From Microbaculum marinisediminis (GTDB lineage Bacteria; Pseudomonadota; Alphaproteobacteria; Rhizobiales; Tepidamorphaceae), in contig NZ_JALIDZ010000007.1 in the NCBI RefSeq assembly GCF_025397915.1, positions 124,001 through 188,000 of the forward strand: a stretch of 64,000 nucleotides of DNA, given 5' to 3'. The notes under the pieces are model-generated. The model saw only the letters and a program-made list of their open reading frames with translations. It was not told the origin of the DNA and ran no database searches. Of this stretch, positions 41,686 through 64,000 are shown piece by piece. A program made the translations under genes and the position numbers. Within the stretch, counting starts at the first letter, position 1, and every line of letters begins with the position of its first letter.

Positions 41686-42843
<1,158 letters not shown>

Positions 42844-42945
42844 GCCGTCGGGACGCGGGTGCTCTCTCGTTGCCCGGATGGCAGGGCCGTCCGGGTCGAC
42901 GGGGAGGCGCGGCTCGGGAGTTTGTTCAGGGCTCCGTGCTGACAC

Positions 42946-43010
42946 CTTGCTCCGCGCATTCCCGTTTTCGGGGGAATGAGCGGAATAGTGACAGGCCGTT
43001 GCGATATGGC
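42946..43010. repeat. Dispersed REP-like hairpin element, copy 1
   Basis: CTTGCTCCGCGC, an ATTCCC/GGGAAT hairpin (42958-42977), GGGAATGAGCGGA and CCGTTGCGATATGGC occur in order. The same pieces recur at 62542-62654, with an extra inverted arm there. Both copies sit immediately 3' of an ABC binding-protein gene. Such elements in other bacteria stabilise the upstream message or block read-through. Confidence 0.7.
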
Positions 43011-43064
43011 GGGTATCGTGGTCCCGCCTTGGCGAACGGCAGAAGCCAGACGGCGAATGCGTTT

Positions 43065-44060: not shown

Positions 44061-45007
44061 GCGCGGCGGCCTCCCACGCCATCCTGCCCGGCCGCGGTGG
44101 CGTCTTAGCAAGCCTGTCGGATCTGCTGTGGCGTCGGCCGGGATTGTTGCTGCTGGCGATGCTGGCGCCGCCGGTCCTCTGGCTGGGCATCATCTATCTC
44201 GGTTCGCTGTTCGCGCTACTGGCCCAGAGCTTTTTCTCGATCGACGAGTTCTCCGGCCTGATCCGCTACGAGCTGACGCTGAAGACCTACGGCGAACTCT
44301 TGCGCCCGTCCAACATGGACATCATCCTGCGGTCGGTCCTGATGGCCTCGGCTGTCACCTTGGCCGCGGCGATCGTCGCCTTTCCGGTCGCCTACTACGC
44401 GGCCCGATACGCGCGCGGCAAATGGAAGGCGCTGTTCTATCTCGGCGCCATGCTGCCGCTGTGGTCGAGCTATCTGGTCAAGGTCTATGCCTGGAAGCTG
44501 ATCCTGGCCAAGGAGGGCATCCTCACCTGGGTCTTCACCAAGCTGCACCTGATGTGGCTGCTCGACGCGGTCCTGTCGATCCCGGTCCTGGGCGGCAACT
44601 CGCTGTCGGTGAGCTATATCGGCACCTTCCTGGTGTTCCTCTACGTCTGGCTGCCGTTCATGATCCTGCCGACGCAGGCGGCCCTGGAGCGGGTGCCGGT
44701 CAGTCTGATCGAGGCGTCCTCGGATCTCGGCGCGGCGCCGGGACAGACCTTCCGAAACGTGCTGCTGCCGCTGGCGCTGCCGGGTATCGTCGCCGGCTCG
44801 ATCTTCACCTTCTCGCTCACCTTGGGCGACTACATCATTCCGCAGATCGTCGGCTCGTCGCGGCTGTTCATCGGCCAGGCGGTCTACGCCCAGCAGGGCA
44901 CGGCCGGAAACATCCCGCTGGCGGCGGCCTTCACCGTCGTTCCGATCGTCATCATGGGCTTCTACCTGTGGGGCGCCAAACGGCTGGGGGCGTTCGATGC
45001 ACTCTGA
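44057..45007 (+). CDS. Polyamine-type ABC transporter permease (YdcU/PotB-like)
   Basis: A 316-residue inner-membrane permease with six main hydrophobic segments (for example [20 protein letters not shown]). The EAA loop is [29 protein letters not shown]. The block [37 protein letters not shown] is typical of PotB-type subunits. It overlaps the ATPase stop (ATGA) and its end overlaps the second permease start, so the four transporter genes are translationally coupled from the ATPase onward. Confidence 0.92.
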
Positions 45008-45812
45008 CCGGACCCACCGCGCACCGCTGGGATTGAAGATCGCCGCCGCCGCCGGGCTCTTGTTCCTGCACCTGCCGATCCTGCTGATCTTCGTCTACGC
45101 CTTCACCACCGAGGAGCGCAGCTACCAGTGGCCGCCCCCCGGCTTCACGCTGCAGTGGCTCGGTGTGACGTGGAACCGTCCCGATGTCTGGGAGGCGCTC
45201 GGCCTGTCGCTCAAGGTGGCCAGCATATCCACCGCGATCGCGCTCGTACTCGGTACGCTTTGCGCCGCCGCCGTATCCGGCTCGCGTTTCTTCGGCCGGG
45301 AGACGATCTCGCTCCTGGTCATCCTGCCGATCGCGCTGCCCGGCATCATCACCGGCATCGCCCTGCGTTCGGCGTTTTCCATCGCCGATATTCCCTTCTC
45401 CGTCTGGACCATCGTGCTTGGCCACGCGACCTTCTGCGTCGTCGTCGTCTACAACAACGCGATCGCCCGCTTCAGGCGCACCTCCGGCTCGCTGATCGAG
45501 GCCTCGATGGACCTCGGCGCCGACGGGTTCCAGACCCTGCGCTACGTGATCCTGCCCAATATCGGCACGGCGCTCGTCGCCGGCGGAATGCTCGCCTTCG
45601 CGCTGTCCTTCGACGAGGTGATCGTCACGACCTTCACCGCCGGACAGCAGGCGACCCTGCCGATCTGGATGCTGGAGGAGCTGGTGCGCCCGCGCCAACG
45701 CCCCGTCACCAACGTGGTGGCGATGGTGGTCGTCCTGGTGACGCTCCTGCCCATCGTCGCCGCCTACTACCTGACCCGCGGCGGCGCCGAGATCGCCGGC
45801 CACGGCAAGTGA
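44997..45812 (+). CDS. Polyamine-type ABC transporter permease (YdcV/PotC-like)
   Basis: A 271-residue permease. Membrane segments begin at [26 protein letters not shown], and the EAA loop is [25 protein letters not shown]. The [25 protein letters not shown] block near the end is characteristic of PotC/YdcV subunits. It starts inside the end of the first permease gene and lies 26 bases before the aldehyde dehydrogenase. Confidence 0.92.
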
Positions 45813-48675: not shown

Positions 48676-49002
48676 ATGCTGAATCGACGCCTGATTGTTC
48701 CTTTCCTCCTTGTCCTTTTGGTGCTGGTGCCTGGAGCGTCGGCCACCGCGGCCGCCGGCGATCCCGTCAACGGTCGGCTCGTCGTCGAGAGATGGTGTTC
48801 GCTTTGCCACTCGGTCAACGGCGTGAACACCGATCCCGACCGCGCCCCGACCTTCGAGCAGATCGCCAATCGCGACGGCCGCGACAGGGCCTATCTGTCC
48901 CGGATGGTGCACGAGGACCACTTCCCGATGACGACATTCCGTCTGTTCGAGGACGAGAAGCGCGACGTCGTCGCCTTTATTCTCTCTTTGAGCAGAAATT
49001 AG
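48676..49002 (+). CDS. Small class I c-type cytochrome
   Basis: A 108-residue periplasmic cytochrome. Residues 1-26 form a signal peptide (LLVLLVLVPGASATAAAG). One heme-binding CSLCH lies at about residues 40-44, and the axial Met is probably in DHFPMTTFRL (near 85). Class I monoheme cytochromes of this size carry single electrons between membrane complexes and dehydrogenases. It precedes the ferredoxin reductase and molybdenum hydroxylase cluster on the same strand. It could accept electrons from a hydroxylase, but the promoter-like region after it suggests separate expression. Confidence 0.85.
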   Translation: MLNRRLIVPFLLVLLVLVPGASATAAAGDPVNGRLVVERWCSLCHSVNGVNTDPDRAPTFEQIANRDGRDRAYLSRMVHEDHFPMTTFRLFEDEKRDVVAFILSLSRN

Positions 49003-49044
49003 CGGTCCGCATCCGTGAATTGCCGGATTGAAGGGGCCGATTGA

Positions 49045-49102
49045 CAGAGATCATTTGCATACGAATGGATATCGCATAATATAAGTATACGAACGATCTC
49101 TG
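49045..49102. promoter_or_regulatory. Promoter/operator region of the N-heterocycle cluster
   Basis: An AT-rich stretch bounded by CAGAGATC (49045-49052) and its complement GATCTCTG (49095-49102). Inside are two related 11-mers, GCATACGAATG (49057-49067) and GTATACGAACG (49085-49095). A third relative, GTATTCGAATG, lies at 61087-61097 before the ABC binding-protein gene. A possible promoter is TTGCAT at 49055 with TATAAG at 49080. The repeats could be the operator of the MarR protein encoded at 59.1 kb. Confidence 0.5.
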
Positions 49103-49115
49103 CGGAGTGCTCGCT

Positions 49116-49889
49116 ATGGCCGCGATCGATACCCAGCGCGTCCTCGACGTCCATCACTGGACGGACCGACTGTTTTCCTTTCGCACGACCCGTGACCCGG
49201 GTTTCCGCTTCGAGAACGGCCAGTTCGTGATGATCGGCCTGCCCGTCGACGGCCGCCCGCTGCTGCGCGCCTATTCGATGGCGAGCGCGAACCACGAGGA
49301 CACGCTCGAGTTCTTCTCCATCAAGGTGCCCGACGGTCCGCTGACGTCGCGGCTCGCCCAGATCCAGGAAGGCGACCAGATCCTGGTCGGCCACAAGCCG
49401 ACGGGCACCCTGGTCCAGGACAGCCTGTTGCCGGGCAAGCGCCTCTATCTGATCTCCACCGGCACGGGCGTCGCCCCGTTCGTCTCGATCATCAAGGATC
49501 CGGAGGTCTACGACCGCTTCGAGGCGGTGGTCCTCGTCCACGGTTGCCGCTTCGTCGAAGACCTCGCCTATGGCGAGCAGATCGTCGACAACGTTCTCAA
49601 GGACGAAATTCTCGCCGAGATCATCGGCGACAAGCTGCACTATTATCCGACCGTCACGCGCGAGCCGTACGAGCGCAAGGGTCGGGTCACCGACCTGTTG
49701 CGGTCCGGCGCGGTTTCGGGGTCGTTCGGCCTGCCGCCGCTCGATCCGGATGCCGACCGGGTGATGATCTGCGGCGGTCCGGCGATGCTCGCCGACATGG
49801 TCGAGATGATGAAGGATATGGGATTTTCGGAGGGATCGGCCTCGCGGCCGGGGCACTACGTGATCGAAAAGGCCTTCGTCGAACGCTGA
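49116..49889 (+). CDS. fpr: Ferredoxin-NADP reductase
   Basis: A 257-residue FAD enzyme moving electrons between NADPH and ferredoxin or flavodoxin. The FAD-binding RAYSMASAN (RxYS) and FFSIKVPDGPLTSRL, the NADP-binding GTGVAPFVSIIKDPE, and the VMICGGPAMLADM block are characteristic, and the end (HYVIEKAFVER) is the usual C-terminus of bacterial Fpr. ATG 49116 follows GGAG by eight bases; a GTG at 49107 is possible. It is the first gene downstream of the operator-like region and could supply low-potential electrons to the 6-hydroxynicotinate-reductase-like protein eight kilobases away. It could also be a stress-related housekeeping Fpr. Confidence 0.92.
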   Translation: MAAIDTQRVLDVHHWTDRLFSFRTTRDPGFRFENGQFVMIGLPVDGRPLLRAYSMASANHEDTLEFFSIKVPDGPLTSRLAQIQEGDQILVGHKPTGTLVQDSLLPGKRLYLISTGTGVAPFVSIIKDPEVYDRFEAVVLVHGCRFVEDLAYGEQIVDNVLKDEILAEIIGDKLHYYPTVTREPYERKGRVTDLLRSGAVSGSFGLPPLDPDADRVMICGGPAMLADMVEMMKDMGFSEGSASRPGHYVIEKAFVER

Positions 49890-49961
49890 CGCCGTGCCGC
49901 TTGCGGTGAGGTAGTGAAGCTGATCGACTGGGGCATCGATCGGGGGGAGGAGGAAACGGCT

Positions 49962-52040
49962 TTGAGCGATGAAGCCGTCCAGTCGGCTGTTTCGGGCGCC
50001 CGCCAGCGGCGGGTGAGCGGCATCGACGTCGGCGGCACCTTCACCGATCTCGTCATCCACGAAAACGGTCCGGACGGACCGGCGGTCCGCATCGCCAAGG
50101 TGCCGACCACCCTGCCCAACCAGGCCGAGGGGGTCCTGTCGGCGATCGCGCTGGCCGGCGTCGCCCCCGCCGACATCGATCTCCTGATCCACGGCACCAC
50201 GGCGACCACCAACGCGATCCTCGAACGCAAGATCGCCCGGGTCGGCCTGATCACCACGGCGGGCTTCCGCGACACGCTGGAGCTCGGCCGCCGCACGCGG
50301 CCCAGGCCCTATGGCATGACCGGGAAGTTCAGCCCGCTCGTTCCGCGCGACCGGCGCCTCGAGGTCGACGAGCGCATGGACGTGAACGGCCAGGTCGTCC
50401 GCCCGCTCGACGAGGCCGGAGTCGCCGCGGCGGCCCGCGCGCTGCTGGCGATGGGGTGCGAAAGCGTCGTCATCCACTTCCTGCATGCCTATGCCAACCC
50501 GGCGCACGAGCTGCGCGCCGGCGAGATCGTCCGCGAGATATGGCCGAACGATTACGTCACGCTCGGCCACGCGCTGCTGTCGGAGTTCCGCGAATACGAG
50601 CGCGGCACCACGGCGACGGTGAACGCCGCCGTCCAACCGATCCTCGACCGCTATGTCCATCGCCTGCAGGGCGATCTGGAGGCGCAAGGCTTCGCCCACG
50701 ACCTTCTGGTGATGAACGGCAACGGCGGCACCGTTTCGGCCCGCCTCGTCGCCCGCGACGCCGCCAAGACCGTGATGTCCGGTCCCGCGTCCGGTGTCAT
50801 CGCCGCCGCCGCGACGCTACGGCAATCGGGGCTTGAGAACGCGATAACCTACGACATGGGCGGCACCTCCACCGACGTCGCGTTGATCCACGGCGGCGTG
50901 CCGGAAGTGTCCTCCGAACTCTCCATCGACTACGGCCTGCCGATCCACGTGCCGATGGTCGACGTGCGCACGGTCGGCGCCGGCGGCGGATCGATTGCCT
51001 CGATCAACGCGGCGGGCGTCCTCAGGGTCGGGCCGGAATCCGCCGGCTCCGCGCCGGGTCCGATCTCCTACGGCCGCGGCGGCACCGAGCCGACCATCAC
51101 CGACGCCAACATGGCGCTCGGCCGCCTCGATCCCGCCGGCCTCACCGCGGTGGAGGGCACCGTCGATGTCGATGGCGTTCGCGCGCGCATCGACGCGGCG
51201 CTGGCGCGGCCGCTCGGCTACACGAGCGAGGAAGCCGCCGCCGCCGTCCTGAAGCTCGCCAACACGCACATGGCCGGGGCGATCCGGCTGGTGTCACTGT
51301 CGCGCGGCTACGATCCGCGCGATTTCGTGCTGTTCGCCTTCGGCGGCGCCGGACCGCTGCACGCCGTCGCCATCGCCCGCGAACTCGGCATTCCCGAGGT
51401 GCTGGTGCCGGCGCGGCCGGGTCTCACCAACGCGCTGGGCTGCCTCGTTGCAGATCTCCGGCAGGACCTGGTCAACACGGTCAACGAGCCGCTCGCGACC
51501 CTCGACATGGCCGCGGTGAAAGCGACGCTCGAGGCCCAGCGCGCCCAGGGGCAGGCGGTCAACGCGGCGAGCCGCGACGAGATCGCCGAGACGGTCGTCC
51601 TGCATGGCGCCGACATGCAGTTCCGTGGTCAGACCCACCTGATACGCGTGCCGATCCCGTCGCCGGACGTGAGCCGCGAGGCGCTGCAGGCGCTTTTCGA
51701 GGACGCCTATTTCGCCCGCTTCAACGTCCGCCTGCCCGAGATTCGGGCCGTGCTCGTCAATCTCGTCACCTCGGTGATCGGCAAGCGGCGCGGCATCGAA
51801 CTGTCCTCCCTCGCCGGGACGGCGGAGGGGGAGGCCAGGATCGGCACGCGCGCGCTCTACGCCGACGGCAACTGGCACGAGGCCGCCATCTACGGCCGCG
51901 ACCGGCTGCGGCCCGGCGACGCGTTCGCCGGCCCGGCGGTCGTCCAGCAGATCGATGCCACGACCGTGATCGAGCCCGGCGCGACAGCGTGCGTCGACAC
52001 GGTCGGCAACCTGCGCATCATGGTCGGGGAGGCCGCATGA
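49962..52040 (+). CDS. Hydantoinase/oxoprolinase A subunit
   Basis: A 692-residue protein of the HyuA/5-oxoprolinase N-terminal family, which uses ATP to open a cyclic amide (lactam or imide) with its B partner. The nucleotide-fold opening GIDVGGTFTDLVIHENG and HGTTATTNAILERK are diagnostic. The central GPASGVIAAA and YDMGGTSTDVALI blocks and VGAGGGSIASI with GAGPLHA-like FGGAGPLHAVAIARELG complete the actin-like core. TTG 49962 has GGAGGA eight bases upstream; GTG 49914 would add 16 residues with a poorly placed site. Its end overlaps hyuB (ATGA). Substrate is unknown; a ring-reduced N-heterocycle is suggested by the neighbours. Confidence 0.9.
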   Translation: MSDEAVQSAVSGARQRRVSGIDVGGTFTDLVIHENGPDGPAVRIAKVPTTLPNQAEGVLSAIALAGVAPADIDLLIHGTTATTNAILERKIARVGLITTAGFRDTLELGRRTRPRPYGMTGKFSPLVPRDRRLEVDERMDVNGQVVRPLDEAGVAAAARALLAMGCESVVIHFLHAYANPAHELRAGEIVREIWPNDYVTLGHALLSEFREYERGTTATVNAAVQPILDRYVHRLQGDLEAQGFAHDLLVMNGNGGTVSARLVARDAAKTVMSGPASGVIAAAATLRQSGLENAITYDMGGTSTDVALIHGGVPEVSSELSIDYGLPIHVPMVDVRTVGAGGGSIASINAAGVLRVGPESAGSAPGPISYGRGGTEPTITDANMALGRLDPAGLTAVEGTVDVDGVRARIDAALARPLGYTSEEAAAAVLKLANTHMAGAIRLVSLSRGYDPRDFVLFAFGGAGPLHAVAIARELGIPEVLVPARPGLTNALGCLVADLRQDLVNTVNEPLATLDMAAVKATLEAQRAQGQAVNAASRDEIAETVVLHGADMQFRGQTHLIRVPIPSPDVSREALQALFEDAYFARFNVRLPEIRAVLVNLVTSVIGKRRGIELSSLAGTAEGEARIGTRALYADGNWHEAAIYGRDRLRPGDAFAGPAVVQQIDATTVIEPGATACVDTVGNLRIMVGEAA

Positions 52041-53836
52041 CCACCCGGACACCAGTGACCAGCCGGACACCAGAAAGCGTCGATCCACTCACCCTGGCCG
52101 TGATCCAGGCGGCGCTGCAGCAGGTCTGCAACGAGATGGACCTCGCCTTCTCGCGCTCCGCCTTCTCCCCGGTGATTGCCGAGGCAGACGACCGCTCATC
52201 CGGCATCTACGACCGCCACACCGGCGCGCTGATCAGCCAGGGCGAACTCGGCCTGCCCGTCTTCGTCGGCACCATGCAGTATTCGACCGCCGAGCTGATC
52301 CGCCTGATCGGCGAAGGCAACGCCGGCGCGCCGGAGCCCGGCGACATCTACATCGTCAACGATCCCTATCTCGGCGGCACGCACCTGATGGACGTGCGCT
52401 TCGCCATGCCTTTCTATTACAACGGCGAGCTGTTCTGCTGGCTGCAGAACACCGGCCATTGGCCCGACGTCGGCGGCATGGTGCCGGGCGGCTTCTCCGC
52501 CCACGCCACCGAGGTCGAGCAGGAGGGCCTGCGCCTGCCGCCGGTCAAGCTGTTCAAGCGCGGCGAGATGGACCGGGAGATCTACGCGATCCTGTGTTCC
52601 AACATGCGCGTTTCCGACCAGCGCATCGGCGACATCAAGGCCCAGGCCGCGGCCCTCTATGTCGGCGAGCGCCGGCTCTGCGATCTGATCGACCGCTACG
52701 GGCTCGACACGATCACCCGGGCGATCGGCGAGATACGCGACCGCGCGGCGACGCTGATGCGCGCGCACATAGCCGAGATTCCGGACGGCACCTACACCTC
52801 GGAGGCATTCGTCGACTCCGACGGCGTCGTCAATGAGCCTTTGAGGATCGCGCTCATCGTCACCAAGGCCGACGACAAGCTGCACTTTGATTTCTCGAAT
52901 AGCTCGCCGCCCTGCCAGGGGCCGATGAATTCCGTCGTCGCCACCACTTATTCGTCGGTCTATCTGGCGGTCCGACACATCTTTCCGGACATCCCGCTCA
53001 ACTCCGGCGCGTTCGAGCCGCTGGTGATCGAACGGCCGGAAGGCACGTTCCTCGACGCGCGCTATCCCCGGCCCGTCTCCGGCTGCGCGGCGGAGGTCTC
53101 CCAGCGCATCGCCGAATCCGTGTTCCTGGCGCTGGTGCAGGCCATTCCGGACAAGGTGACGGCGGCGCCGGCCGGTTCGTCCGGCAACTTCGCGCTCGGC
53201 GGCTTCGATCCGGCCAAGGGCTCGGGCTACGTCATGTACCAGATCTCCGGCGGCGGCTATGGCGGCAACGCCGACCATGACGGCCTCAGCAACGGCTGTT
53301 CGACCATCGGCATTTCGCGCACCCCGCCGGTCGAGGTCATGGAGCAGTATTTCCCGGTGCTGTTCCACCGCTTCGCCCTGCGCGAGGGCTCGGGCGGCGC
53401 GGGCCTGCATCGCGGCGGCTTCGGCGTCCACTACGAGGTCGAGGTGCTGCGCGGCGACGCACGCGCCTCATTCGTCATGGACCACGGCCGTTTCGGTCCG
53501 CCCGGCGTGCTCGGCGGTGCCGATGGCGGGCCGAACGTCGTCAAGGTTCACCGCAACGGCACGGTGATGATCCCGGAGCATCTGTCCAAGGACCAGGGCA
53601 TCCCGATGCAGGTCGGAGACCGGGTCGAGGTGATGACGCCCGGCGGCGGCGGCTATGGCGACCCGTTCCTGCGCGATATCGCCGCCGTCCGCAACGATTT
53701 CCGGATGGGCTACTATACGGCCGACGAGATCCGCCAGCGGTTCGGCGTGGCGATCCGTGCGGACGGCACGGTCGACGACGTGGAGACGGCACGCCTGCGC
53801 GGCCAGGCCGGACCTGCGTCCCGGATGACGGCGTGA
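52037..53836 (+). CDS. Hydantoinase/oxoprolinase B subunit
   Basis: A 599-residue catalytic partner of the A subunit. Family blocks are DPLTLAVIQAALQQVCNEMDLAFSRSAFSPVI near the start, NDPYLGGTHLMDVRF, the metal-site WLQNTGHWPDVGG, SGCAAEVSQRIAE, and the glycine-rich end MTPGGGGYGDPFLRD. Length matches independent HyuB proteins, not the fused 5-oxoprolinase. ATG 52037 overlaps the A-subunit stop by four bases. The FAD subunit starts 11 bases later. ATP-dependent ring opening of a lactam, such as a tetrahydro-6-oxonicotinate, would fit the cluster; this is inference. Confidence 0.9.
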   Translation: MTTRTPVTSRTPESVDPLTLAVIQAALQQVCNEMDLAFSRSAFSPVIAEADDRSSGIYDRHTGALISQGELGLPVFVGTMQYSTAELIRLIGEGNAGAPEPGDIYIVNDPYLGGTHLMDVRFAMPFYYNGELFCWLQNTGHWPDVGGMVPGGFSAHATEVEQEGLRLPPVKLFKRGEMDREIYAILCSNMRVSDQRIGDIKAQAAALYVGERRLCDLIDRYGLDTITRAIGEIRDRAATLMRAHIAEIPDGTYTSEAFVDSDGVVNEPLRIALIVTKADDKLHFDFSNSSPPCQGPMNSVVATTYSSVYLAVRHIFPDIPLNSGAFEPLVIERPEGTFLDARYPRPVSGCAAEVSQRIAESVFLALVQAIPDKVTAAPAGSSGNFALGGFDPAKGSGYVMYQISGGGYGGNADHDGLSNGCSTIGISRTPPVEVMEQYFPVLFHRFALREGSGGAGLHRGGFGVHYEVEVLRGDARASFVMDHGRFGPPGVLGGADGGPNVVKVHRNGTVMIPEHLSKDQGIPMQVGDRVEVMTPGGGGYGDPFLRDIAAVRNDFRMGYYTADEIRQRFGVAIRADGTVDDVETARLRGQAGPASRMTA

Positions 53837-53847
53837 GGGAGAGCGGA

Positions 53848-54717
53848 ATGGCGGCCTATTTCCGACCTGTGACCCTCGACGAAGCACTGGAGATCCGCGC
53901 GAACGGGCCGGTGACGATCCTGGCCGGCGGCACCGATGTCTATCCTGCGCGCGCGAACCGTGTCGCCTGGGGCGATATGCGGCGCGACGATATCCTCGAC
54001 ATTTCCGCGATCGAAGAGCTGAGGGGATTGGAACAGACCGCCGATGGCCTGCGTTTCGGCGCGCTTGCGACCTGGTCCCGGTTGCGTGGCGCCGATCTGC
54101 CCGACGCCTTCGCCGGGTATCGGGCGGCTTCCCGCGATGTCGGCGGCGCGCAGGTGCAGAACCGCGGCACGCTGGTCGGCAACATCTGCACCGCCTCTCC
54201 CGCCGGCGACGGCATCCCCTGCCTGCTCAGCCTCGACGCCGGGATCGAGATCGCTTCGCCGCGCGGCCGCCGCACCGTGCCGATGGCCGAGTTCATCGAC
54301 GGCTACCGGCACACGGTCTGCGGGTCCGACGAGATCGTCACGGCGATAATCGTGCCGCATCCCCCGGCGGGCGCCCGCGGCGCCTTCGTCAAGCTCGGCG
54401 CCCGGCGCTATCTCGTCATCTCGATCGTCATGGTCGCCGCAGTCCTCGCCGCCGACGAGGACGGCATCGTCACCCACGCCCGCGTCGCGGTCGGCGCCTG
54501 CTCGGCGGTCGCGCAACGGCTGGCGGCGTTGGAGACGGCTCTCGTCGGCCGGCCGCTCGTCGCCGCGCCCGATCTCGTTTCGGCGGACCTGGTTACGGGA
54601 CTGGCGCCCATCGACGATGTGCGAGGTTCCGCGGCGTTTCGCGCGGCCGCCGCCATCGATGCGGTTCGTGACGCCCTGTGGCAAGTGACCGGCACCGGCC
54701 GGCGGAGTGCGGCATGA
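53848..54717 (+). CDS. Molybdenum hydroxylase FAD-binding subunit (xanthine dehydrogenase family)
   Basis: A 289-residue flavin subunit. FAD-binding motifs are ILAGGTDVYPARANR (pyrophosphate loop) and VQNRGTLVGNICTASPAGDGIP, and the C-terminal domain GAFVKLGARRYLVISIVMVAA is normal. It would pass electrons from the iron-sulfur/Mo protein encoded next to NAD or another acceptor. ATG 53848 has GGGAGAG upstream; an in-frame start at 53833 would add five residues. It overlaps the next gene by four bases, so the two subunits should be made together. A separate FAD subunit distinguishes this enzyme from the cytochrome-linked NicAB nicotinate dehydrogenase of Pseudomonas. Confidence 0.92.
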   Translation: MAAYFRPVTLDEALEIRANGPVTILAGGTDVYPARANRVAWGDMRRDDILDISAIEELRGLEQTADGLRFGALATWSRLRGADLPDAFAGYRAASRDVGGAQVQNRGTLVGNICTASPAGDGIPCLLSLDAGIEIASPRGRRTVPMAEFIDGYRHTVCGSDEIVTAIIVPHPPAGARGAFVKLGARRYLVISIVMVAAVLAADEDGIVTHARVAVGACSAVAQRLAALETALVGRPLVAAPDLVSADLVTGLAPIDDVRGSAAFRAAAAIDAVRDALWQVTGTGRRSAA

Positions 54718-57485: not shown

Positions 57486-59074
57486 CGACGATCGACAAAA
57501 GCCCCGCGACCGACCGGTTGTCCGCCGAGGCCCGCTCGAAGCAGTTCGGTGCCGCGGAGGAGGGCGGCGTCATCCGCTGCGACGCCTGCCCGGTGCTGTG
57601 CCGCATCAAGCCGGGGCGCGCCGGCGCCTGCGACCGCTACGCCAACGAAGACGGCCACCTCGTCCGCGTCGATCCGGTGCTGCTGCTGGAGAAGGCCGTC
57701 GAGGCGGGCGGCAATCTCGTGCCCTTCGCCGACGCCGGTTGGGACGGCAAGCTGCTCGACCCCGAGCGCACCTTCGTCACCGGTGTCGGCTCCGGCACCA
57801 CCTATCCCGACTACAAGCCGGCGCCCTTCATCGTCGCCGCGGAGCATGACGGCGTCGACACGGTCACCGTCGTCACCGAGGGCATCTTCAGCTACTGCGG
57901 CGTCAAGGTGAAGATCGACACCGACCGCCACCTCGGCCCGGAGACGGCCCCGGTGCGCGCGAACGGCGAGCAGATCGGCCACGTGACGACGGCCGAATAC
58001 GGCTCGCAGATGCTGTCCATCGGCGGCGTCCGCCATCTCACTGGCGGGTCCAAGAAGGAAGGCAACGTCACCTGCCGCGCGCTGATGGATCTGTGCGCCG
58101 GCGATCCGGTGACGCTGTCGATCGACGGCGGCCACGAGGTCGTAGTCCAGGCCGGGCATGCTCCGATCGTTGATGGTCATCCGGAAGAGCGCATGCGCGT
58201 CGGCTGCGGCTCCGCCGCCGTCGGCATCTTCGCCAGGCAATGGCTCGGCCATGTCGACGAGGTGATCGTCGTCGACGACCACATCACCGGCGTCCTCACC
58301 GAACATCAGGCCGGCAAGGTGCTGCAGATGCCCGCCTCCGGTATCCGTGTGCGTGGCCGCCGCTCGACGCCCGGCCGTTATTTCCAGGTCGCCCAGCCCG
58401 GACTCGGCTGGGGCGGCACCGACATCACCGAGCCGCTCGAGATCATAGCGAAGATCGATCCGGCAACGGCCTGGCCCGGTCTGCGCCTGCTGATGACCTC
58501 GACCACCGGCGAGGACGCGCTCTACTGCGTGCTCGACGAAAACCTCGTTCCGGTGCCCGCCGAGATGCCGTCCGCGGTGCGCGCCGTCGTCGACCGGATC
58601 GGCGAGAACTGCGAGCCGTCGCTGTGCTCCGTCGTGTTCATGGCCGGTGCCGGTGGATCGCTGCGCGCCGGCGTGACCGAGAACCCGGTGCTGCTGACCC
58701 GCTCGGTGGCCGCCGGCGAGACGCGCGTCACCATGGGCGGCGCGCCGGTCTATCTGTGGCCCGGCGGCGGCATCACTGTCATGGCCGACGTGACGCACAT
58801 GCCGAAGGGCTCGTTCGGCTACGTGCCGACGCCGGCGATCGTCGCGCCGATCGAGTTCACGCTGCCCGCCGCGCTCTACGAGATCCTCGGCGGCCACGCG
58901 TCCGATGCCGTCTCCATCGACGACATCCTGCGCGCCGTCGCGCCGGAGGCGCGTGTCGAGGCCTGGCACGGCGGCAACCCGTGGCCGTTCCAGCAAGGCG
59001 CCGGAACGAAGTCGGGGGGCACAAAAACGGGTGGTAAAAAAACCGGGGGAACCGGGACCGGAGGAGCCGGGTGA
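57482..59074 (+). CDS. 6-hydroxynicotinate reductase-like iron-sulfur protein
   Basis: A 530-residue protein resembling the 6-hydroxynicotinate reductase family first known from the nicotinate fermenter Eubacterium barkeri, which reduces the pyridine ring with ferredoxin. A cysteine cluster near the N-terminus (RCDACPVLCRIKPGRAGACDRYAN) can hold an iron-sulfur centre. Other strong blocks are EGIFSYCGVKVKIDTDRHLG, VRVGCGSAAVG and HITGVLTEHQAGKVLQ. GTG 57482 overlaps the Mo-subunit stop and has AAGGAGG seven bases upstream. The last 30 residues are a Gly/Thr/Lys repeat (KTGG units) absent from ordinary enzymes. Family recall is by pattern, so the exact substrate stays open. Confidence 0.75.
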   Translation: MTTIDKSPATDRLSAEARSKQFGAAEEGGVIRCDACPVLCRIKPGRAGACDRYANEDGHLVRVDPVLLLEKAVEAGGNLVPFADAGWDGKLLDPERTFVTGVGSGTTYPDYKPAPFIVAAEHDGVDTVTVVTEGIFSYCGVKVKIDTDRHLGPETAPVRANGEQIGHVTTAEYGSQMLSIGGVRHLTGGSKKEGNVTCRALMDLCAGDPVTLSIDGGHEVVVQAGHAPIVDGHPEERMRVGCGSAAVGIFARQWLGHVDEVIVVDDHITGVLTEHQAGKVLQMPASGIRVRGRRSTPGRYFQVAQPGLGWGGTDITEPLEIIAKIDPATAWPGLRLLMTSTTGEDALYCVLDENLVPVPAEMPSAVRAVVDRIGENCEPSLCSVVFMAGAGGSLRAGVTENPVLLTRSVAAGETRVTMGGAPVYLWPGGGITVMADVTHMPKGSFGYVPTPAIVAPIEFTLPAALYEILGGHASDAVSIDDILRAVAPEARVEAWHGGNPWPFQQGAGTKSGGTKTGGKKTGGTGTGGAG

Positions 59075-59538
59075 TGGCCGCCGCCAACGAGACCGCCGCA
59101 CAGCGTAGCCGTCACGACCCGGCAGGCTACAGGCTCGAGCCGCAGATCGGCTACGTACTGCGCCGCGCGCACCAGCGCGCCACCCAGATCTTCAATTCCG
59201 TCATGGGCGAGTTCAAGGTGACGCCGACCCAGTTCGCCGCGCTCGCCAAGCTCGACGATGTCGGCCGCGTTTCCCAGAACGAGCTCGGCCGGCTGACGGC
59301 GATGGACCCGGCGACGATCTGGGGCGTCGTCAGTCGCCTGCTCAAGCAGGGCTATGTCGTCCAGTCGACGGACCCGAACGATGCCCGCCTCGTCATGTTG
59401 GAACTGACCGAAACCGGCCGCGAGGCGATCGATCGGATGAAGGCGGTGGCCGCCGAGGTCTCGCGCGAGACGCTGGCCCCCCTCACCGAGGAGGAATCCA
59501 GGAAGCTCCTCGACCTGTTGAGCCGGATAGGGAGCTGA
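59074..59538 (+). CDS. MarR family transcriptional regulator
   Basis: A 154-residue regulator with a full MarR winged helix: GYVLRRAHQRATQIFNSVMGEFKVTPTQFAALAKLDDVG, then SQNELGRLTAMDPATIWGVVSRLLKQGYVVQSTDPNDARLVMLELT. It lies inside the catabolic operon, its ATG sharing a base with the preceding stop and the next gene starting two bases later, so it is co-expressed with the enzymes. MarR proteins often respond to aromatic acids. Candidate operators are the GTATWCGAAYG repeats at 49.06-49.10 kb and 61.09 kb. Confidence 0.93.
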   Translation: MAAANETAAQRSRHDPAGYRLEPQIGYVLRRAHQRATQIFNSVMGEFKVTPTQFAALAKLDDVGRVSQNELGRLTAMDPATIWGVVSRLLKQGYVVQSTDPNDARLVMLELTETGREAIDRMKAVAAEVSRETLAPLTEEESRKLLDLLSRIGS

Positions 59539-59540
59539 CC

Positions 59541-60428
59541 ATGCTGGCCGACACCGCTCGAATCCAAAATCTGGCGGGCGGTCGGTTGCATCTTTCGCAC
59601 GGGCCGATCGATGTGGTCCTGCGGGCCTGGGGCGCGCCGGACGACATCGGCGCGGCCTATCGCGCGGTGGCGGCGCGCTTTCCCGAGATCCTTCCCGAAC
59701 TCTGCGGCGAGTTGCCGGTTCTGCGCGCGCCGCTCGGTGACGGGCCGACGCCTGCGAGTCCGGTCGGCCGGCGCATGCAGGTGGCATGTGCGCCGTACGC
59801 AGGGACCTTCGTCACGCCGATGGCCGCCGTCGCCGGCTCCGTCGCCGACGAGCTGCTGGCGACGATGCTGGGTGCGGCGCCGCTGACCCGCGCCTTCGTC
59901 AATGACGGCGGTGACATCGCCGTTCATTGCGCGCCCGGCACCGATGGCGCCACGACGCTCGACGTCGGCGTCGCCGGCGACTTCGGGCGCGGCATCCTGC
60001 CGGGCGTGAACGGCGTCGTGCGGATCGGCGCCGGCGATGGCGTCGGCGGTATCGCCACCTCCGGCGCCCACGGCCGTTCGCGTTCGCTGGGCATCGCCGA
60101 TTCCGTCACTGTGCTCGCCCGGGACGCGGCCGGCGCCGATGTCGCCGCGACGCTGATCGCCAATGCCGTCGATCTGGATCATCCGGCGGTTCAACGCCTG
60201 CCGGCCTGCGAACTCGATCCCGACAGCGATCTCGGCGACCGGCTGGTCACGGTCGCGGTCGGCGATCTACCGCGCGCGGCGATCCGTGCCGCGCTCGAAA
60301 GCGGACTTGCCCGTGCGCGCGACTATCGGACCCGAGGCCTGATCGTCGACGCGGCGCTGATGCTGCGCGGCGAGGCAATCGCGTTGAACGAGGGCCATCT
60401 AAGAGCAATTCAGGGGAGAGCCGCATGA
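59541..60428 (+). CDS. UPF0280 family protein
   Basis: A 295-residue protein of a conserved family without assigned activity, distantly related in fold to the flavin transferase ApbE. Family blocks are PVGRRMQVACAPYAGTFVTPMAAVAGSVADELL, RAFVNDGGDIAVHC, and GIATSGAHGRSRSLGIADSVTVLA. ATG 59541 follows GGGAG at good spacing. It is packed between the MarR and amino-acid-synthesis-family genes, overlapping the latter by four bases. Constant company with a ring reductase and hydantoinase suggests a role in that pathway, perhaps flavin handling. That role is inference. Confidence 0.85.
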   Translation: MLADTARIQNLAGGRLHLSHGPIDVVLRAWGAPDDIGAAYRAVAARFPEILPELCGELPVLRAPLGDGPTPASPVGRRMQVACAPYAGTFVTPMAAVAGSVADELLATMLGAAPLTRAFVNDGGDIAVHCAPGTDGATTLDVGVAGDFGRGILPGVNGVVRIGAGDGVGGIATSGAHGRSRSLGIADSVTVLARDAAGADVAATLIANAVDLDHPAVQRLPACELDPDSDLGDRLVTVAVGDLPRAAIRAALESGLARARDYRTRGLIVDAALMLRGEAIALNEGHLRAIQGRAA

Positions 60429-61006
60429 GCGTCGACGTCCGCAAGATCGTCACCGGGGTCGAGGACATCTGGCACGACGGAGGCCCGCCGCTCGCCGATC
60501 CGCTGCGCAGGGGATGGATTGCCTGCGTCATCGCCAACCCCTTTGCCGGCCGATACGAACCCGACATCGAACGCTTTATGGATGACCTGAAGCCGATGGG
60601 CCTCGAGTGTTCCAGGCGATTGGTCGCCGCGATCGGTGGCGACGTCGGCAGGGTCGAGGCCTATGGCAAGGGGGCGCTCGTCGGTGTCGACGGCGAGATC
60701 GAGCACGGGGCGCTGTGGCACGTGCCCGGCGGCTACGCGATGCGCGAACTGCTCGGCCAGGCTCTCGCGATCGTCCCGTCCACCGCGAAGCTCGGCGCCA
60801 TGGGCGCGGGGATCGACATCCCGATCCACCACAAGGACGCCTGCTACGTACGCAGCCATTTCGACGCCATCACCGTGACGGTCGCCGACGCCCCGCGTCC
60901 CGACGAGATGATGTTCGTGCTGGTCATGGCGACCGGCGGTCGCCCGCATGCCCGCGTCGGCGGCCTCCAGGCATCGGAAATTTCGAAATGGGACGGTCAG
61001 CGCTGA
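60425..61006 (+). CDS. Amino acid synthesis (AA_synth) family protein
   Basis: A 193-residue protein of a family named for weak links to amino acid metabolism and still uncharacterised. Conserved stretches are GWIACVIANPFAGRYEPDI, AYGKGALVGVDGEIEHGALWHVPGGYAMRELLG, GAGIDIPIHHKDACYVRSHFD and VLVMATGGRPHARVGG. It overlaps the UPF0280 stop (ATGA). The fold and repeated His/Asp pairs (IPIHHKDACYVR) hint at metal or cyclic-amide chemistry, but nothing firmer can be read. The next gene starts 163 bases later, behind a promoter-like region. Confidence 0.85.
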   Translation: MSVDVRKIVTGVEDIWHDGGPPLADPLRRGWIACVIANPFAGRYEPDIERFMDDLKPMGLECSRRLVAAIGGDVGRVEAYGKGALVGVDGEIEHGALWHVPGGYAMRELLGQALAIVPSTAKLGAMGAGIDIPIHHKDACYVRSHFDAITVTVADAPRPDEMMFVLVMATGGRPHARVGGLQASEISKWDGQR

Positions 61007-61068
61007 GGAGGAGCGATGCGCCGGCCGGACCGGACCACGAGAGAGGCAGGGAGAGAGCGGCTTCCGAA

Positions 61069-61097
61069 AAAAGTGATAATCTGCTCGTATTCGAATG
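61069..61097. promoter_or_regulatory. Promoter/operator region upstream of the ABC binding protein
   Basis: AAAAGTGATAAT (61069-61080) is identical to a 12-mer in the nicX-like/flavin reductase promoter at 39548-39559. GTATTCGAATG (61087-61097) contains the palindrome ATTCGAAT and resembles the two 11-mers before the ferredoxin reductase gene. The AT-rich patch stands out in a GC-rich gap and probably drives transporter expression. Confidence 0.5.
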
Positions 61098-61169
61098 GTT
61101 CCGCACGGGACCGATCCGATCCGGACAGGAAAGAGCCGGTGGATCGGCCAAAACAGAGGGAATGGCACC

Positions 61170-62486
61170 ATGAGTGATTCGAAGAAGAATACGACCCCCC
61201 CGTCCAGCGGCATCACCCGTCGCTCGGCCCTCAAGGGCTTCGCGGCGACCGGCGCCGCGGCCGCCGCCGCGCAGGTCGCGCCGGGCGCCGTGCGGTACGT
61301 CCAGGCGCAGACCTCCGAACCCCTGAAGCTCGGATTCCAGGTCCACCGCACCGGCATCGGCGCCGCCTACGGGCGCTGGTACGAGCGCGTCGTCAACGCC
61401 TGCGTCGCCGAGATCAACGCCAATGGCGGCATCGCCGGCCGGCAGATCGAGATCGTCGCAGAGGATGACGGCACCGATCCCAAGCGCGGCGCCGAGATGG
61501 TCGAGAAGTTCGCGACCCAGCACGGCGTCGATATCGCCTTCGGCACCCTGTTCTCGCACGTCGTCATGGGCTCGGCCCCGCGCGCCGGCGAGCTGAAGCT
61601 TCCCTATTACGTCGTCTCCGAGGGCTACCACGTCGCCTCGGGCGCCCTGAACCGCTACACCTTCCAGCCCGGTATCACCGACGTGCGCTCGCAGGTGATG
61701 TCGATGGCCCCGTGGGTCGCCGGCAACCTCGGCAAGAAGGTGACGATGATCTACCCGGACTACGCGTTCGGCCACGATCACCGCGACTATTTCTCCGAGG
61801 CGATGAAGAAGCAGGGCGGCGAGATCGTCGAGCTTATCCCGATCCCGCCGACGGAGACGTCCTACACCAAGTACTTCCCGAAGATCCCGTCCTCCACCGA
61901 GGTGCTCTATCACGTCATGGTCGGTCCGGGCGTGCTCACCTTCGTCAAGGAGCTCGGCGAACACTTCGGCTCGAACCGTCCGGAGCTCTTCGGCTTCATC
62001 GACTCGCTCGAGGCCGTGCCGCTGGCGAGCCCGGGTCTCGAATTCCTGGAAGGCACCTACTTCTGGGAAGGCTACCCGCGCTATGCACAGCCCGACCAGA
62101 CGCCGTACGACAAGCACTATCGCCAGGCGGTCGGCGTCAACGACGATGGTGCGTCGGTCAACGATCCCAAGGACATCTCGACCTACTCGCACATGTTCGG
62201 CTGCTGGGAGACGCTCTACACCATCAAGCAGGCGGTTGAGGCATCGGGCTACAAGGGGCCGAAGGACAAGGCCGCGCTGGTCGAGGCGACCGAGGCGATC
62301 ACCGATATCCCGTGGAGCAATCAGCACCCGCAGGGCGACAAGGTGTTCAACGGCAAGATGCACCAGGTATTCGGGCACCAGAACATCTCGCAGGTGGCCA
62401 ACGCCAGGCTCGACGTCGTGCACCGCACCTCGATCGAGGACGGCATGTACGAGAACGACACCGACTACACCAAGATGCCGTTGTAG
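61170..62486 (+). CDS. Branched-chain/urea-type ABC transporter substrate-binding protein, Tat-exported
   Basis: A 438-residue type I periplasmic receptor. The leader has a twin-arginine motif (SGITRRSALKGFAATG) before an Ala-rich core and an AQT cleavage region, so export is probably by Tat, unusual for this class. The mature part shows LKLGFQVHRTGIGAAYGRWYERVVNACVAEINANGGIAGRQIEIVAEDDGTDPKRGAEMVEKF, the LivK/AmiC pattern. ATG 61170 has GAGGGAA upstream; in-frame extension to 61095 lacks a signal sequence. Such receptors bind branched amino acids, amides, urea or aromatic acids. The downstream LivH/LivM-type permeases complete the importer. Confidence 0.9.
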   Translation: MSDSKKNTTPPSSGITRRSALKGFAATGAAAAAAQVAPGAVRYVQAQTSEPLKLGFQVHRTGIGAAYGRWYERVVNACVAEINANGGIAGRQIEIVAEDDGTDPKRGAEMVEKFATQHGVDIAFGTLFSHVVMGSAPRAGELKLPYYVVSEGYHVASGALNRYTFQPGITDVRSQVMSMAPWVAGNLGKKVTMIYPDYAFGHDHRDYFSEAMKKQGGEIVELIPIPPTETSYTKYFPKIPSSTEVLYHVMVGPGVLTFVKELGEHFGSNRPELFGFIDSLEAVPLASPGLEFLEGTYFWEGYPRYAQPDQTPYDKHYRQAVGVNDDGASVNDPKDISTYSHMFGCWETLYTIKQAVEASGYKGPKDKAALVEATEAITDIPWSNQHPQGDKVFNGKMHQVFGHQNISQVANARLDVVHRTSIEDGMYENDTDYTKMPL

Positions 62487-62541
62487 GACGGGATCCTCTT
62501 TGCACCGGAGGGGCCGGAATTTCCGGCCTCTCCGTCTCCCA

Positions 62542-62654
62542 CTCATTCCCGCGAAGGCGGGAATCCGGAAGCGGCAAGCGCGGAGCAAGTGGCCCTAGAG
62601 TCCCGCCTTCGCGGGAATGAGCGGAGAGACGTCAGTCGTCCGTCGCGATACGGC
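62542..62654. repeat. Dispersed REP-like element, copy 2 with 21-bp inverted arms
   Basis: Exact 21-bp inverted repeats at 62542-62562 and 62601-62621 are separated by 38 bases. Each arm is itself a hairpin (ATTCCCGC...GCGGGAAT). The interval holds GCGCGGAGCAAG, and CCGTCGCGATACGGC follows. These parts also occur in copy 1 at 42946-43010. The element separates the binding-protein gene from the permeases, as in copy 1. Confidence 0.8.
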
Positions 62655-62690
62655 CATGATCGCGCGTTTCCAGTCTGAAAGAGACCGCCC

Positions 62691-63572
62691 TTGGATTTCG
62701 GACCCTACCTGTTTCTCGCCGTTCTGGAGGGAACCGTCACCGCCGCGGTGCTGGCGCTCACCGCGCTCGGCCTGTCGCTGGTGTTCGGCGTCATGCGCAT
62801 CGTCAACGTCGCGCACGGCGAGTTCTTCATGCTCGGCGCGGTGCTGGCCTGGTGGATCGCCAGCATGGTTGCCGGTCACCCGGCGGTCGGCTTTCTCGCC
62901 GCGCTGGTCCTCAGCCCGCTCATCGTCGGCGCCGTCGCGCTCGTGTGCGAGCGCACGGTGCTGAGGCGCATCGACTACGATCCGGAGGCGACCATCGTCG
63001 CCACCATCGGCATCCTCTACATCATCCAGCAGCTCGCGCTGACCTTCTACGGCGCCGATGCGCGGCCGGTCGAGGCGCCTATCCATTTCCGGGTCCTGTT
63101 CCCCTGGTTCGGCTATTCCGGCTACAAGCTCGTCGTCGTCGGTGCCTCCGCCGCGCTGCTCATCGCCACCTGGTTCGTGCTGACGAAGACCCGCCTCGGC
63201 CTCGTCATGCGCGCCACCCAGTACGACCGCGAGACCGCGCAGGCCTTCGGCATTCCCGTCGACAGGGTCTACGCGGTGGTCTTCGCCATCGGCGCCATGC
63301 TGGCCGCCACCGCCGCCGTGCTGATCGTGCCGATCCAGCAGGCGCACTACCTGATGGGCGGCGATCCGCTGCTGCTGTCGTTCATCGTCGTCATCATCGG
63401 CGGGCTGGGCTCGATCCTCGGCACGGTGGTCGCCGCGATCATCATCGGCCTCAGCGACGGCATCATCTCGGTGTTCTTCTCGCCGACGCTGGCCAAGATC
63501 CTCGCCACCCTGCTCGTCGCCCTCGTTCTCGTCGTTCGGCCGCAGGGACTGTTCGGGAGGACGTCGCGATGA
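62691..63572 (+). CDS. Branched-chain-type ABC transporter permease (LivH-like)
   Basis: A 293-residue membrane permease with about eight hydrophobic segments. LivH features include LTALGLSLVFGVMRIVNVAHGEFFMLGAVLAWWI, the EAA-like MRATQYDRETAQAFGIPVDRVYAVVFAIGA, and GGLGSILGTVVAAIIIGL near the end. TTG 62691 is the only start that keeps the normal N-terminus; its ribosome site (AAAGAGA) is weak. It follows the REP-like element and overlaps the LivM-like gene by four bases. Confidence 0.9.
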   Translation: MDFGPYLFLAVLEGTVTAAVLALTALGLSLVFGVMRIVNVAHGEFFMLGAVLAWWIASMVAGHPAVGFLAALVLSPLIVGAVALVCERTVLRRIDYDPEATIVATIGILYIIQQLALTFYGADARPVEAPIHFRVLFPWFGYSGYKLVVVGASAALLIATWFVLTKTRLGLVMRATQYDRETAQAFGIPVDRVYAVVFAIGAMLAATAAVLIVPIQQAHYLMGGDPLLLSFIVVIIGGLGSILGTVVAAIIIGLSDGIISVFFSPTLAKILATLLVALVLVVRPQGLFGRTSR

Positions 63573-64000
63573 GCGCGGGCCTGGAGGCGCGCACGATGTC
63601 GCGGTCGCGCGTTGGCGACCGCGCGGTGCTGCTGCACCTCGCCGTGATCGCGGCGCTGTTCCTCGTCCAGTTCGTGGTCGGCGACTATCAGCACCTGAGC
63701 CTTGCCCGCGTCATGGTGCTCGCGGTCTACGCGGTCGGCTACAACATCCTGTTCGGCTACACCGGCCTGCTGAGTCTCGGCCACGCCATGTTCTTCGCCG
63801 CCGGCCTCTACGGCGCCGGGCTGACGGCGACCTACCTGTCCTTTGGCGTCCCGGCGGCCTTCGTCGCCGGCATCGTCTCGGGCCTCGTCCTCTCGGCCGG
63901 GATCGGCCTGATCGCGCTGCGCACTACCGGTGTCGCCTTCATGATCGTCACCATGATGTTCGCCCAGGCCGGCTACCTGATCGTGCTCTATTTCGGCGCG
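63569..64000 (+). CDS. Branched-chain-type ABC transporter permease (LivM-like), 5' part
   Basis: The first 144 codons are present; the frame is open at the right edge. ATG 63569 overlaps the LivH stop (ATGA) and has GGGAGGA at good spacing. Residues about 21-144 hold three to four membrane segments with the LivM pattern (VMVLAVYAVGYNILFGYTGLLSLGHAMFFAAGLYGAG, GLIALRTTGVAFMIVTMMFAQAGY). The ATPase genes of the importer are expected just beyond the window. Confidence 0.9.
   Translation, partial: MSAGLEARTMSRSRVGDRAVLLHLAVIAALFLVQFVVGDYQHLSLARVMVLAVYAVGYNILFGYTGLLSLGHAMFFAAGLYGAGLTATYLSFGVPAAFVAGIVSGLVLSAGIGLIALRTTGVAFMIVTMMFAQAGYLIVLYFGA

Follow-up and report, generated by a model that had tools for sequence, protein, structure and literature searches.

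Gene content and organisation of the locus

The stretch of Microbaculum marinisediminis DNA analysed here (the window; 64,000 nucleotides, G000:C7:124001-188000, from a genome of 5.1 Mb in 55 contigs) carries near its end a set of genes built around a homologue of 6-hydroxynicotinate reductase (Hnr), which we read with moderate confidence as an operon for reductive nicotinate breakdown, in which a hydantoinase-type enzyme, HyuAB, opens the ring in place of the enamidase. All of the genes named for the cluster lie on the + strand, from 49107 to 63572, and the gene list given in an earlier note on this DNA was borne out in full, with every gene present and in sequence. The series begins with a ferredoxin-NADP+ reductase-like protein (FNR; 49107..49889; Pfam FAD_binding_6 and NAD_binding_1), followed by HyuA, the ATP-binding subunit (49914..52040; Hydantoinase_A, 300.5 bits), its partner subunit HyuB (52037..53836; Hydantoinase_B, 541 bits), and a molybdenum hydroxylase (Mo-hydroxylase) made up of an FAD subunit (MoFAD; 53833..54717; FAD_binding_5 and CO_deh_flav_C) and a fused [2Fe-2S] and Mo subunit (MoL; 54714..57485; Fer2, Fer2_2, MoCoBD_1 and MoCoBD_2). 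Next come the Hnr homologue (57482..59074; 530 aa), recognised by comparison with the Hnr proteins encoded beside enamidase, a MarR-family regulator (59071..59538; Pfam MarR), UPF0280 (59541..60428; NCBIfam PRK04334, 348 bits against a cut-off of 290) and AA_synth (PF06684, DUF1185; 60425..61006; 233.6 bits, cut-off 27). The last genes encode the periplasmic binding protein of a Liv-type importer (61170..62486; Peripla_BP_6) and a LivH-type permease (62691..63572), the latter recognised by a LivHM profile match in an overlapping locus, L009.

Six adjacent pairs (HyuA/HyuB, HyuB/MoFAD, MoFAD/MoL, MoL/Hnr, Hnr/MarR and UPF0280/AA_synth) overlap by 4 bp, a count that depends on the start codons chosen in the analysis, and because of these overlaps most of the cluster genes are likely to be co-read as one unit. 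The order MoFAD-MoL-Hnr-UPF0280 recurs in 32 of 36 alphaproteobacterial neighbourhoods, the other four retaining Hnr-UPF0280, and the arrangement is therefore not a matter of chance. The MarR gene, which lies between Hnr and UPF0280 in the window, is placed elsewhere or missing in the other alphaproteobacterial neighbourhoods. The importer extends beyond the end of the window into L009, where an ATPase gene lies downstream, and Liv-type importers also occur in many other Hnr loci. The G+C content is 0.617 at 48-50 kb and climbs to 0.70-0.72 across much of the operon.

The Hnr homologue

By sequence, the Hnr homologue has no match in Pfam, NCBIfam or the PDB, and its name is taken from a conserved partnership with enamidase and from the annotation of plasmid records, in which proteins 62.6-65.9% identical to it are called 6-hydroxynicotinate reductase. 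The partnership emerges from a scan with an enamidase alignment whose first row is the Eubacterium barkeri enamidase of PDB 2vun. Within the best 80 of 549 loci, which were those used, 65 contain an Hnr homologue, and these 65 also contain UPF0280 (59), AA_synth (59) and a recognised Mo-hydroxylase (55). They span Acetobacterium bakii and other Firmicutes, Thermodesulfobacteriota, Proteobacteria and an Archaeoglobi genome. In the last of these, a genome bin, enamidase, UPF0280 and Hnr lie together (L104, 9971-14275), an archaeal cluster of the nicotinate type. Identity of the window protein to the distant enamidase-linked Hnr proteins, those of the Firmicutes, Thermodesulfobacteriota and archaeon, is 40-47%; among the enamidase loci it is 61-71% to the Hnr proteins of the proteobacterial group, and within the proteobacterial-type set as a whole 61-79%. 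In a sample of 289 genomes of the class, 44 carry an Hnr homologue, the window genome included; those of the other genomes are 62-73% identical to the window protein, one of them being split into two pieces. By way of comparison, the published account of strain SG-6C gives an identity of 42% between its protein and E. barkeri Hnr (PMC3511419).

The earlier description of this protein as reductase-like and of the Hnr type holds up well, both in these identities and in the phylogeny that had been suggested as a check, where the window protein shares one tree with the distant enamidase-linked Hnr proteins. The comparisons support placing the window reductase in the Hnr family that adjoins enamidase and Mo-hydroxylase in other phyla. 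Six cysteines are invariant in 41 Hnr sequences, four of them as C-x2-C-x3-C-x9-C, which fits an iron-sulphur protein; Hnr from E. barkeri reportedly carries a covalent flavin and several iron-sulphur clusters (work of Alhapel and colleagues in 2006), and Hnr is dependent on ferredoxin. A predicted model of the window protein (predicted local distance difference test score (pLDDT) 83.6, predicted template modelling score (pTM) 0.82) gave no PDB match with Foldseek at an E-value of 0.001 or better, the best being 0.12. The best VIA-align score, a Z of 4.7 between residues 131-218 and the C-terminal part of the glycine-cleavage T-protein, is a weak match; we dropped the resemblance on this account, and such a weak match is not proof of a new fold.

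Exchange of HyuAB and enamidase across genomes

Support for HyuAB as a ring opener comes from its distribution relative to enamidase. In the 36 fetched Hnr neighbourhoods, enamidase is present in 10, HyuA in 14, both in none and neither in 12, while HyuA and HyuB are each absent from all 80 of the enamidase loci. The exchanged gene is an enamidase by sequence, the protein from L047 matching PDB 2vun at E 5.7e-112. Whole-genome searches were then considered, in which enamidase was counted above 600 bits and a HyuA orthologue at 56% identity or more, thresholds that were fixed after the gaps in the scores had been seen. Below the HyuA cut, the 44 class Hnr genomes hold a second copy at 52% and then nothing above 47%, and the next value among the 28 genomes of the replication set is 46%.

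Of the 44 class genomes with Hnr, 26 have HyuA and 18 enamidase, one having both among these and one neither. Eight further Hnr genomes came from 41 relatives (10 with a match, less the window genome itself and a 39-residue match at E 4.8e-4), and five of these have HyuA only, two enamidase only and one neither. A replication set of 28 new Hnr genomes, all listed as 100% complete, was drawn from a phylum sample of 398 (32 matches listed, four already counted); here 12 have HyuA only, 14 enamidase only, two both and none neither. Combined, the 80 Hnr genomes divide into 42 with HyuA only, 33 with enamidase only, three with both and two with neither, the latter being a genome that is 70% complete and one in 770 contigs. 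The number with both is sensitive to the enamidase threshold, since G432 and G499 of the replication set (621 and 617 bits), which were counted as having both although this goes against the reading favoured here, would fail a cut of 650 bits, and inclusion of the weaker enamidase paralogues (244-413 bits) that were left out in G104, G064, G299 and G314 would raise it from three to seven. Fisher's test gives a p of 1e-16 over the genomes unweighted, a calculation that treats related genomes as units, and 1e-8 when each combination of family and pattern is counted once. Four families (f1, f2, f24 and f105) each contain genomes of both types. These comparisons support a mutual replacement of HyuAB and enamidase among Hnr genomes.

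It is possible that this pattern reflects lineage history only, with two versions of the gene block having been inherited and HyuAB carrying out a neighbouring step. The uniformity of family f193 and the near-uniformity of f181 are as this explanation would have it, and the independent pairs on starred branches of the Hnr tree, at four for exchange, none against and one non-differing, reach a p of only 0.125. Yet the opener label on this tree (76 rows, built by a quick method) needs 12 changes, at least four of which are forced by starred branches, compared with 22.2 in shuffles; four families contain both types, and only two of the 80 Hnr genomes, the one that is 70% complete and the one in 770 contigs, lack both openers. 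The tree alone is no proof of exchange; further weight comes from the replication set and from the changes of opener inside families. We consider lineage history on its own a very improbable explanation.

Relationships of HyuAB

HyuA and HyuB have full-length Pfam matches and sugar-kinase-type ATP motifs, present in HyuA as GIDVGGTFTD and DMGGTSTD, and the two subunits, full-length matches and ATP motifs are all shared with the superfamily of caprolactamase, 5-oxoprolinase and N-methylhydantoinase. The nearest named relatives are caprolactamase and N-methylhydantoinase, and the closest NCBIfam model to HyuA is that of caprolactamase alpha. Since these relatives open lactams and other cyclic amides, the family fits an action on 1,4,5,6-tetrahydro-6-oxonicotinate (THON), the expected product of Hnr, which is a six-membered lactam. 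A role as a carboxylase of the acetone or acetophenone type was set aside, the operon genes scanned including none recognisable as a third subunit.

The window HyuA is separated from its kin within the same genome, where the best paralogue is 45% identical, and orthologues in Hnr genomes are 56-87% identical. At the 56% cut-off, an orthologue is found in 28 of the 289 class-sample genomes, 26 being among the 44 with Hnr and two among the 245 without it. To judge from these figures, HyuAB of the window type forms a group of its own, linked chiefly to Hnr.

The Mo-hydroxylase and the likely substrate

In the fused subunit of the Mo-hydroxylase, the GVGEP and Cys motifs are intact. Hydroxylases of the same XDH type are found across the 64 proteobacterial-group Hnr loci together with enamidase in 18, with HyuAB in 13 and with no opener within reach in 11, and a NicB-like hydroxylase occurs with enamidase in three and with HyuAB in one; no hydroxylase above the thresholds is present in the remaining 18 of the 64 stretches. 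The alternative hydroxylase is seen on plasmids of Neorhizobium and Comamonadaceae, which combine Hnr with a cytochrome-bearing Mo-hydroxylase, one with HyuAB and one with enamidase. The two NicB-like proteins, from L079 and L080, are 50% identical over 1246 columns and combine Mo with cytochrome c domains, and the nicA/nicB annotation is found on L079 (Neorhizobium) only, not on L080. As the NicB profile was seeded from these two proteins, their own scores are circular, while those of L145 and L154 are independent. Because two exchangeable hydroxylases are found, one of them annotated nicA/nicB, nicotinate is the best guess for the substrate, and we propose on the basis of these associations that the Mo-hydroxylase would be a nicotinate 6-hydroxylase.

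An alternative is that the operon degrades a related N-heteroaromatic compound, such as isonicotinate, picolinate or a substituted pyridine or pyrimidine, by the same chemistry. The sequence does not fix the substrate, and in PDB searches the Mo-hydroxylase finds its best relatives among the aldehyde oxidoreductases, which outscore the E. barkeri nicotinate dehydrogenase 3hrd. Elsewhere, however, the core of Hnr, UPF0280 and AA_synth accompanies enamidase and, in a few genomes, a hydroxylase annotated as nicAB or similar to it, and the SG-6C paper assigns an Hnr cluster in an organism that uses nicotinate and 6-hydroxynicotinate (PMC3511419). In view of this company we regard a different substrate as decidedly unlikely.

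UPF0280 and AA_synth

In 99 of 107 Hnr loci, UPF0280 is the next gene downstream of Hnr and has the same orientation. In most of the exceptions it is displaced or the sequence runs out: in L149 it is downstream with overlapping envelopes, in L110 it is 3.7 kb further on, and in L127, L107, L123, L088 and L126 Hnr is at the end of the stretch or no more than 0.7 kb from it. Only in L153 is UPF0280 missing although the sequence continues past Hnr. Comparison of profiles with hhalign pairs UPF0280 with ApbE at 95.3% (E 2e-8, 96 columns), against 0.2% each for the controls Hnr and AA_synth. With the predicted model (pLDDT 91.7, pTM 0.91), Foldseek returned the same-family structure 2o34 first and ApbE, Ftp or FmnB proteins at every rank from 3 to 40 (E 7.1e-5 to 0.026, then 0.3), and VIA-align gave Z scores of 14.5-16.4 over 207-226 residues for ApbE/Ftp/FmnB, the next family, uricase, reaching 7.9. 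The predicted structure of UPF0280 thus has the fold of the ApbE flavin transferases. Residues D200 and T204, which align with ApbE, are invariant in 27 sequences and in all 99 rows of the alignment, and their spacing of four residues is that of D280 and T284, which bind the metal in Ftp from E. coli (PMC4767422).

An ordinary ApbE role is less easily reconciled with the data. ApbE uses a histidine as base (PMC12052999), whereas in UPF0280 no column has His in 70% or more of the 99 rows and there is no Pfam ApbE match. The ApbE target motif D-x-x-[ST]-G-A-[ST] is found in none of 126 Hnr rows, in strict or relaxed form (some loci being counted twice), and with the motif missing from Hnr, ordinary ApbE chemistry on this protein finds no support. 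We suggest tentatively, and at a little under even chances, that UPF0280 serves Hnr by attaching or otherwise handling its flavin, through a chemistry unlike that of ApbE.

AA_synth is found in 90 of the 107 Hnr loci and has the PDB relatives 3byq and 2qtp. Two DUF1185 structures have been described as a hexameric variant of the Bacillus chorismate mutase fold with a conserved cavity, and Glu90, Glu92, His93, His98, His144, His174, Arg172 and Arg176 are named there as cavity or salt-bridge residues (PMC2954203). All of these except His174 are invariant in 21 members. The authors of that work argued for a function in amino-acid metabolism, in part because genes for branched-chain amino-acid transport lie close by (PMC2954203); importers of this type are found here in Hnr clusters. 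AA_synth accompanies enamidase even where no Hnr is in the stretch read (L133, L157, L160 and L163), and for this reason we place it after ring opening, where our guess is that it would act perhaps on the enamine product. As a ring opener itself AA_synth was given low weight, since it accompanies both openers and, to our knowledge, enamidase alone has been credited with that step.

Proposed pathway

In the route that we favour, nicotinate would be taken up by the Liv-type importer and the Mo-hydroxylase would put oxygen on C6. FNR would provide reduced ferredoxin and so feed electrons to Hnr, which would convert 6-hydroxynicotinate to THON. HyuAB, acting as an ATP-dependent lactamase, would open the lactam of THON instead of enamidase, and the enamine formed by this opening would shed ammonia to give 2-formylglutarate. 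UPF0280 would probably help to fit the Hnr flavin, and AA_synth would probably act on the opened product. Sequence and comparison establish the gene order, the Hnr family, the exchange of the two openers and the ApbE fold of UPF0280, whereas the substrates, the use of ATP, the direction in which electrons flow and the parts played by UPF0280 and AA_synth are inferred. A more far-reaching version holds that Hnr has an unseen fold, that its covalent flavin is attached through UPF0280, as a dedicated factor of the cytosol, without the ApbE histidine or target motif, and that either of two unrelated and freely exchanged openers, the metal-dependent enamidase or the ATP-driven HyuAB, is followed by AA_synth acting on the enamine; taken as a whole, this is less likely than not.

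The source of electrons may vary. The best NCBIfam match of FNR is PRK10926 at 158.7 bits, below the cut-off of 390, and FNR is present in nine of the 64 proteobacterial-type Hnr loci. A 2-oxoacid:ferredoxin oxidoreductase of the KorAB type, a possible alternative source of reduced ferredoxin, was seen near Hnr in L055, L056, L060, L077, L131, L148 and L196, that is, in six of the 64 proteobacterial-group loci plus L196. Of other neighbours, a Rieske-type-looking oxygenase, family F12 (e.g. L047:11742-12884), is present in 15 of these 64 loci.

Evidence against the proposal and an enamidase in the same genome

Besides the small number of independent tree pairs and the aldehyde oxidoreductase matches described above, several findings weigh against the proposed route. 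HyuA and HyuB score 471 and 340 bits against the strict caprolactamase equivalog models, each with a cut-off of 1000. The tie to Hnr is not exclusive, as five Hnr-free genomes (G011, G095, G182, G224 and G120) carry HyuA at 50-54%, and at a cut of 50% it would be present in seven of the 245 genomes without Hnr. The remaining two, G114 and G217, encode a HyuAB belonging to this group next to another kind of Mo-hydroxylase. No NCBIfam nicotinate dehydrogenase model is matched by the NicB-like proteins of L079 or L080, and the name NicAB is that of the deposited annotation. Finally, the window genome holds an enamidase orthologue on another contig (G000:C8:205476-206639, E 4.4e-213). As to G114 and G217, their loci (L197 and L198), with HyuAB and no Hnr, perhaps represent a route in which hydroxylation yields a lactam and the ring is not reduced.

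The C8 enamidase is outside the window operon, and no other enamidase match in the genome reaches E 1e-30. In the enamidase tree it falls within the proteobacterial group, nearest to the enamidases of Hnr genomes, and given this placement it could well act on THON as a ring opener. In the stretch around it (L163, G000:C8:196500-216400), the segment 8968-16541 encodes enamidase, two copies of AA_synth, an isochorismatase-domain protein and an importer of the Liv type, and a MarR gene is nearby. Neither Hnr nor a Mo-hydroxylase nor UPF0280 was recognised in the 19.9 kb read, and the cluster may either serve an enamidase pathway that is entered by a different step or supply a half that the window pathway lacks. 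In a rival explanation, the C8 enamidase opens the ring and HyuAB cleaves some other lactam or is a redundant second opener. The strength of the enamidase match and its grouping favour this, as does a member of the same genus, G290 (an 86% complete draft), which has an enamidase and no HyuA orthologue that could be found. In G290, FNR, Hnr, MarR and importer genes lie on one contig (L190), and enamidase follows on another (L191) in the order enamidase-MarR-Mo-hydroxylase-UPF0280-AA_synth-AA_synth. On the other side, it is HyuAB and not enamidase that lies within the overlapping Hnr operon, none of those three partners was recognised around the C8 enamidase, and in a second genus mate, G289 (85% complete), the HyuAB operon is present, broken up over two short contigs, with no enamidase found in the draft. 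We judge the rival unlikely, although HyuAB need not be the only ring opener in the window genome. From these gene contents the genus looks like a live case of opener exchange, with the window species having both. The earlier suggestion that HyuAB replaces enamidase is strengthened by the exchange over 80 Hnr genomes and weakened by the enamidase orthologue in the window genome.

Other genes near the cluster

A small c-type cytochrome of 108 aa is encoded just upstream (48676..49002, + strand; Pfam Cytochrom_C, E 9.4e-5, 24.1 bits, cut-off 21.3), and its membership of the cluster is uncertain. Further upstream, at 42591-45812 of the window, are polyamine-type ABC importer-like genes (ATPase and two permeases), judged from their translations. 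Among the downstream frames of L009 that were scanned, an HlyD/AcrB-type efflux pair was recognised, and a family III CoA-transferase (L009 11678-12946, - strand), about 10 kb past the end of the window, could activate glutarate downstream.

Comparison with known systems and significance

The nicotinate fermentation genes ndh, hnr and ena of E. barkeri are said to have been described by Alhapel and colleagues in 2006, and a Mo-hydroxylase and Hnr are common to that system and the window operon. Unlike E. barkeri, the window operon has no enamidase but has HyuAB and FNR, and its iron-sulphur domain is fused to the Mo subunit. Acetobacterium bakii, a relative of E. barkeri, has UPF0280 and AA_synth beside enamidase, and both families are also in the window operon. 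Azorhizobium doebereinerae (L145) and Aquabacter (L154) have a NicB-like hydroxylase and enamidase where the window has an XDH-type Mo-hydroxylase and HyuAB. A cluster with an Hnr homologue in Azorhizobium caulinodans and Bradyrhizobiaceae SG-6C is already in print, its genes assigned by BLAST (PMC3511419), so the claim of the earlier note that the set is mostly uncharacterised does not extend to the core cluster; it does hold for the version with HyuAB and for the roles of UPF0280 and AA_synth. In the open-licence literature, from which most subscription journals are missing, no paper was found that joins 6-hydroxynicotinate with hydantoinase, links 6-hydroxynicotin- with ApbE, or names UPF0280. 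The pathway is known, and the form with HyuAB was not found in the literature searched.

Reductive nicotinate breakdown is known from few organisms, and among the Hnr genomes sampled the form with HyuAB was at least as common as that with enamidase, at 45 versus 36 of 80, three being in both. Given that it is common, many genes called hydantoinase or oxoprolinase may belong to nicotinate degradation. UPF0280 and DUF1185, the latter named for amino acid synthesis, become testable parts of one pathway, and the attachment of the Hnr flavin becomes a directly testable question. The Liv-type importer genes near DUF1185, part of the basis on which amino-acid metabolism was inferred (PMC2954203), can be given another reading. 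If the more far-reaching version is true, it would provide first functions for UPF0280 and DUF1185, and it would mean that bacteria have repeatedly come to spend ATP on a reaction for which a different enzyme needs none.

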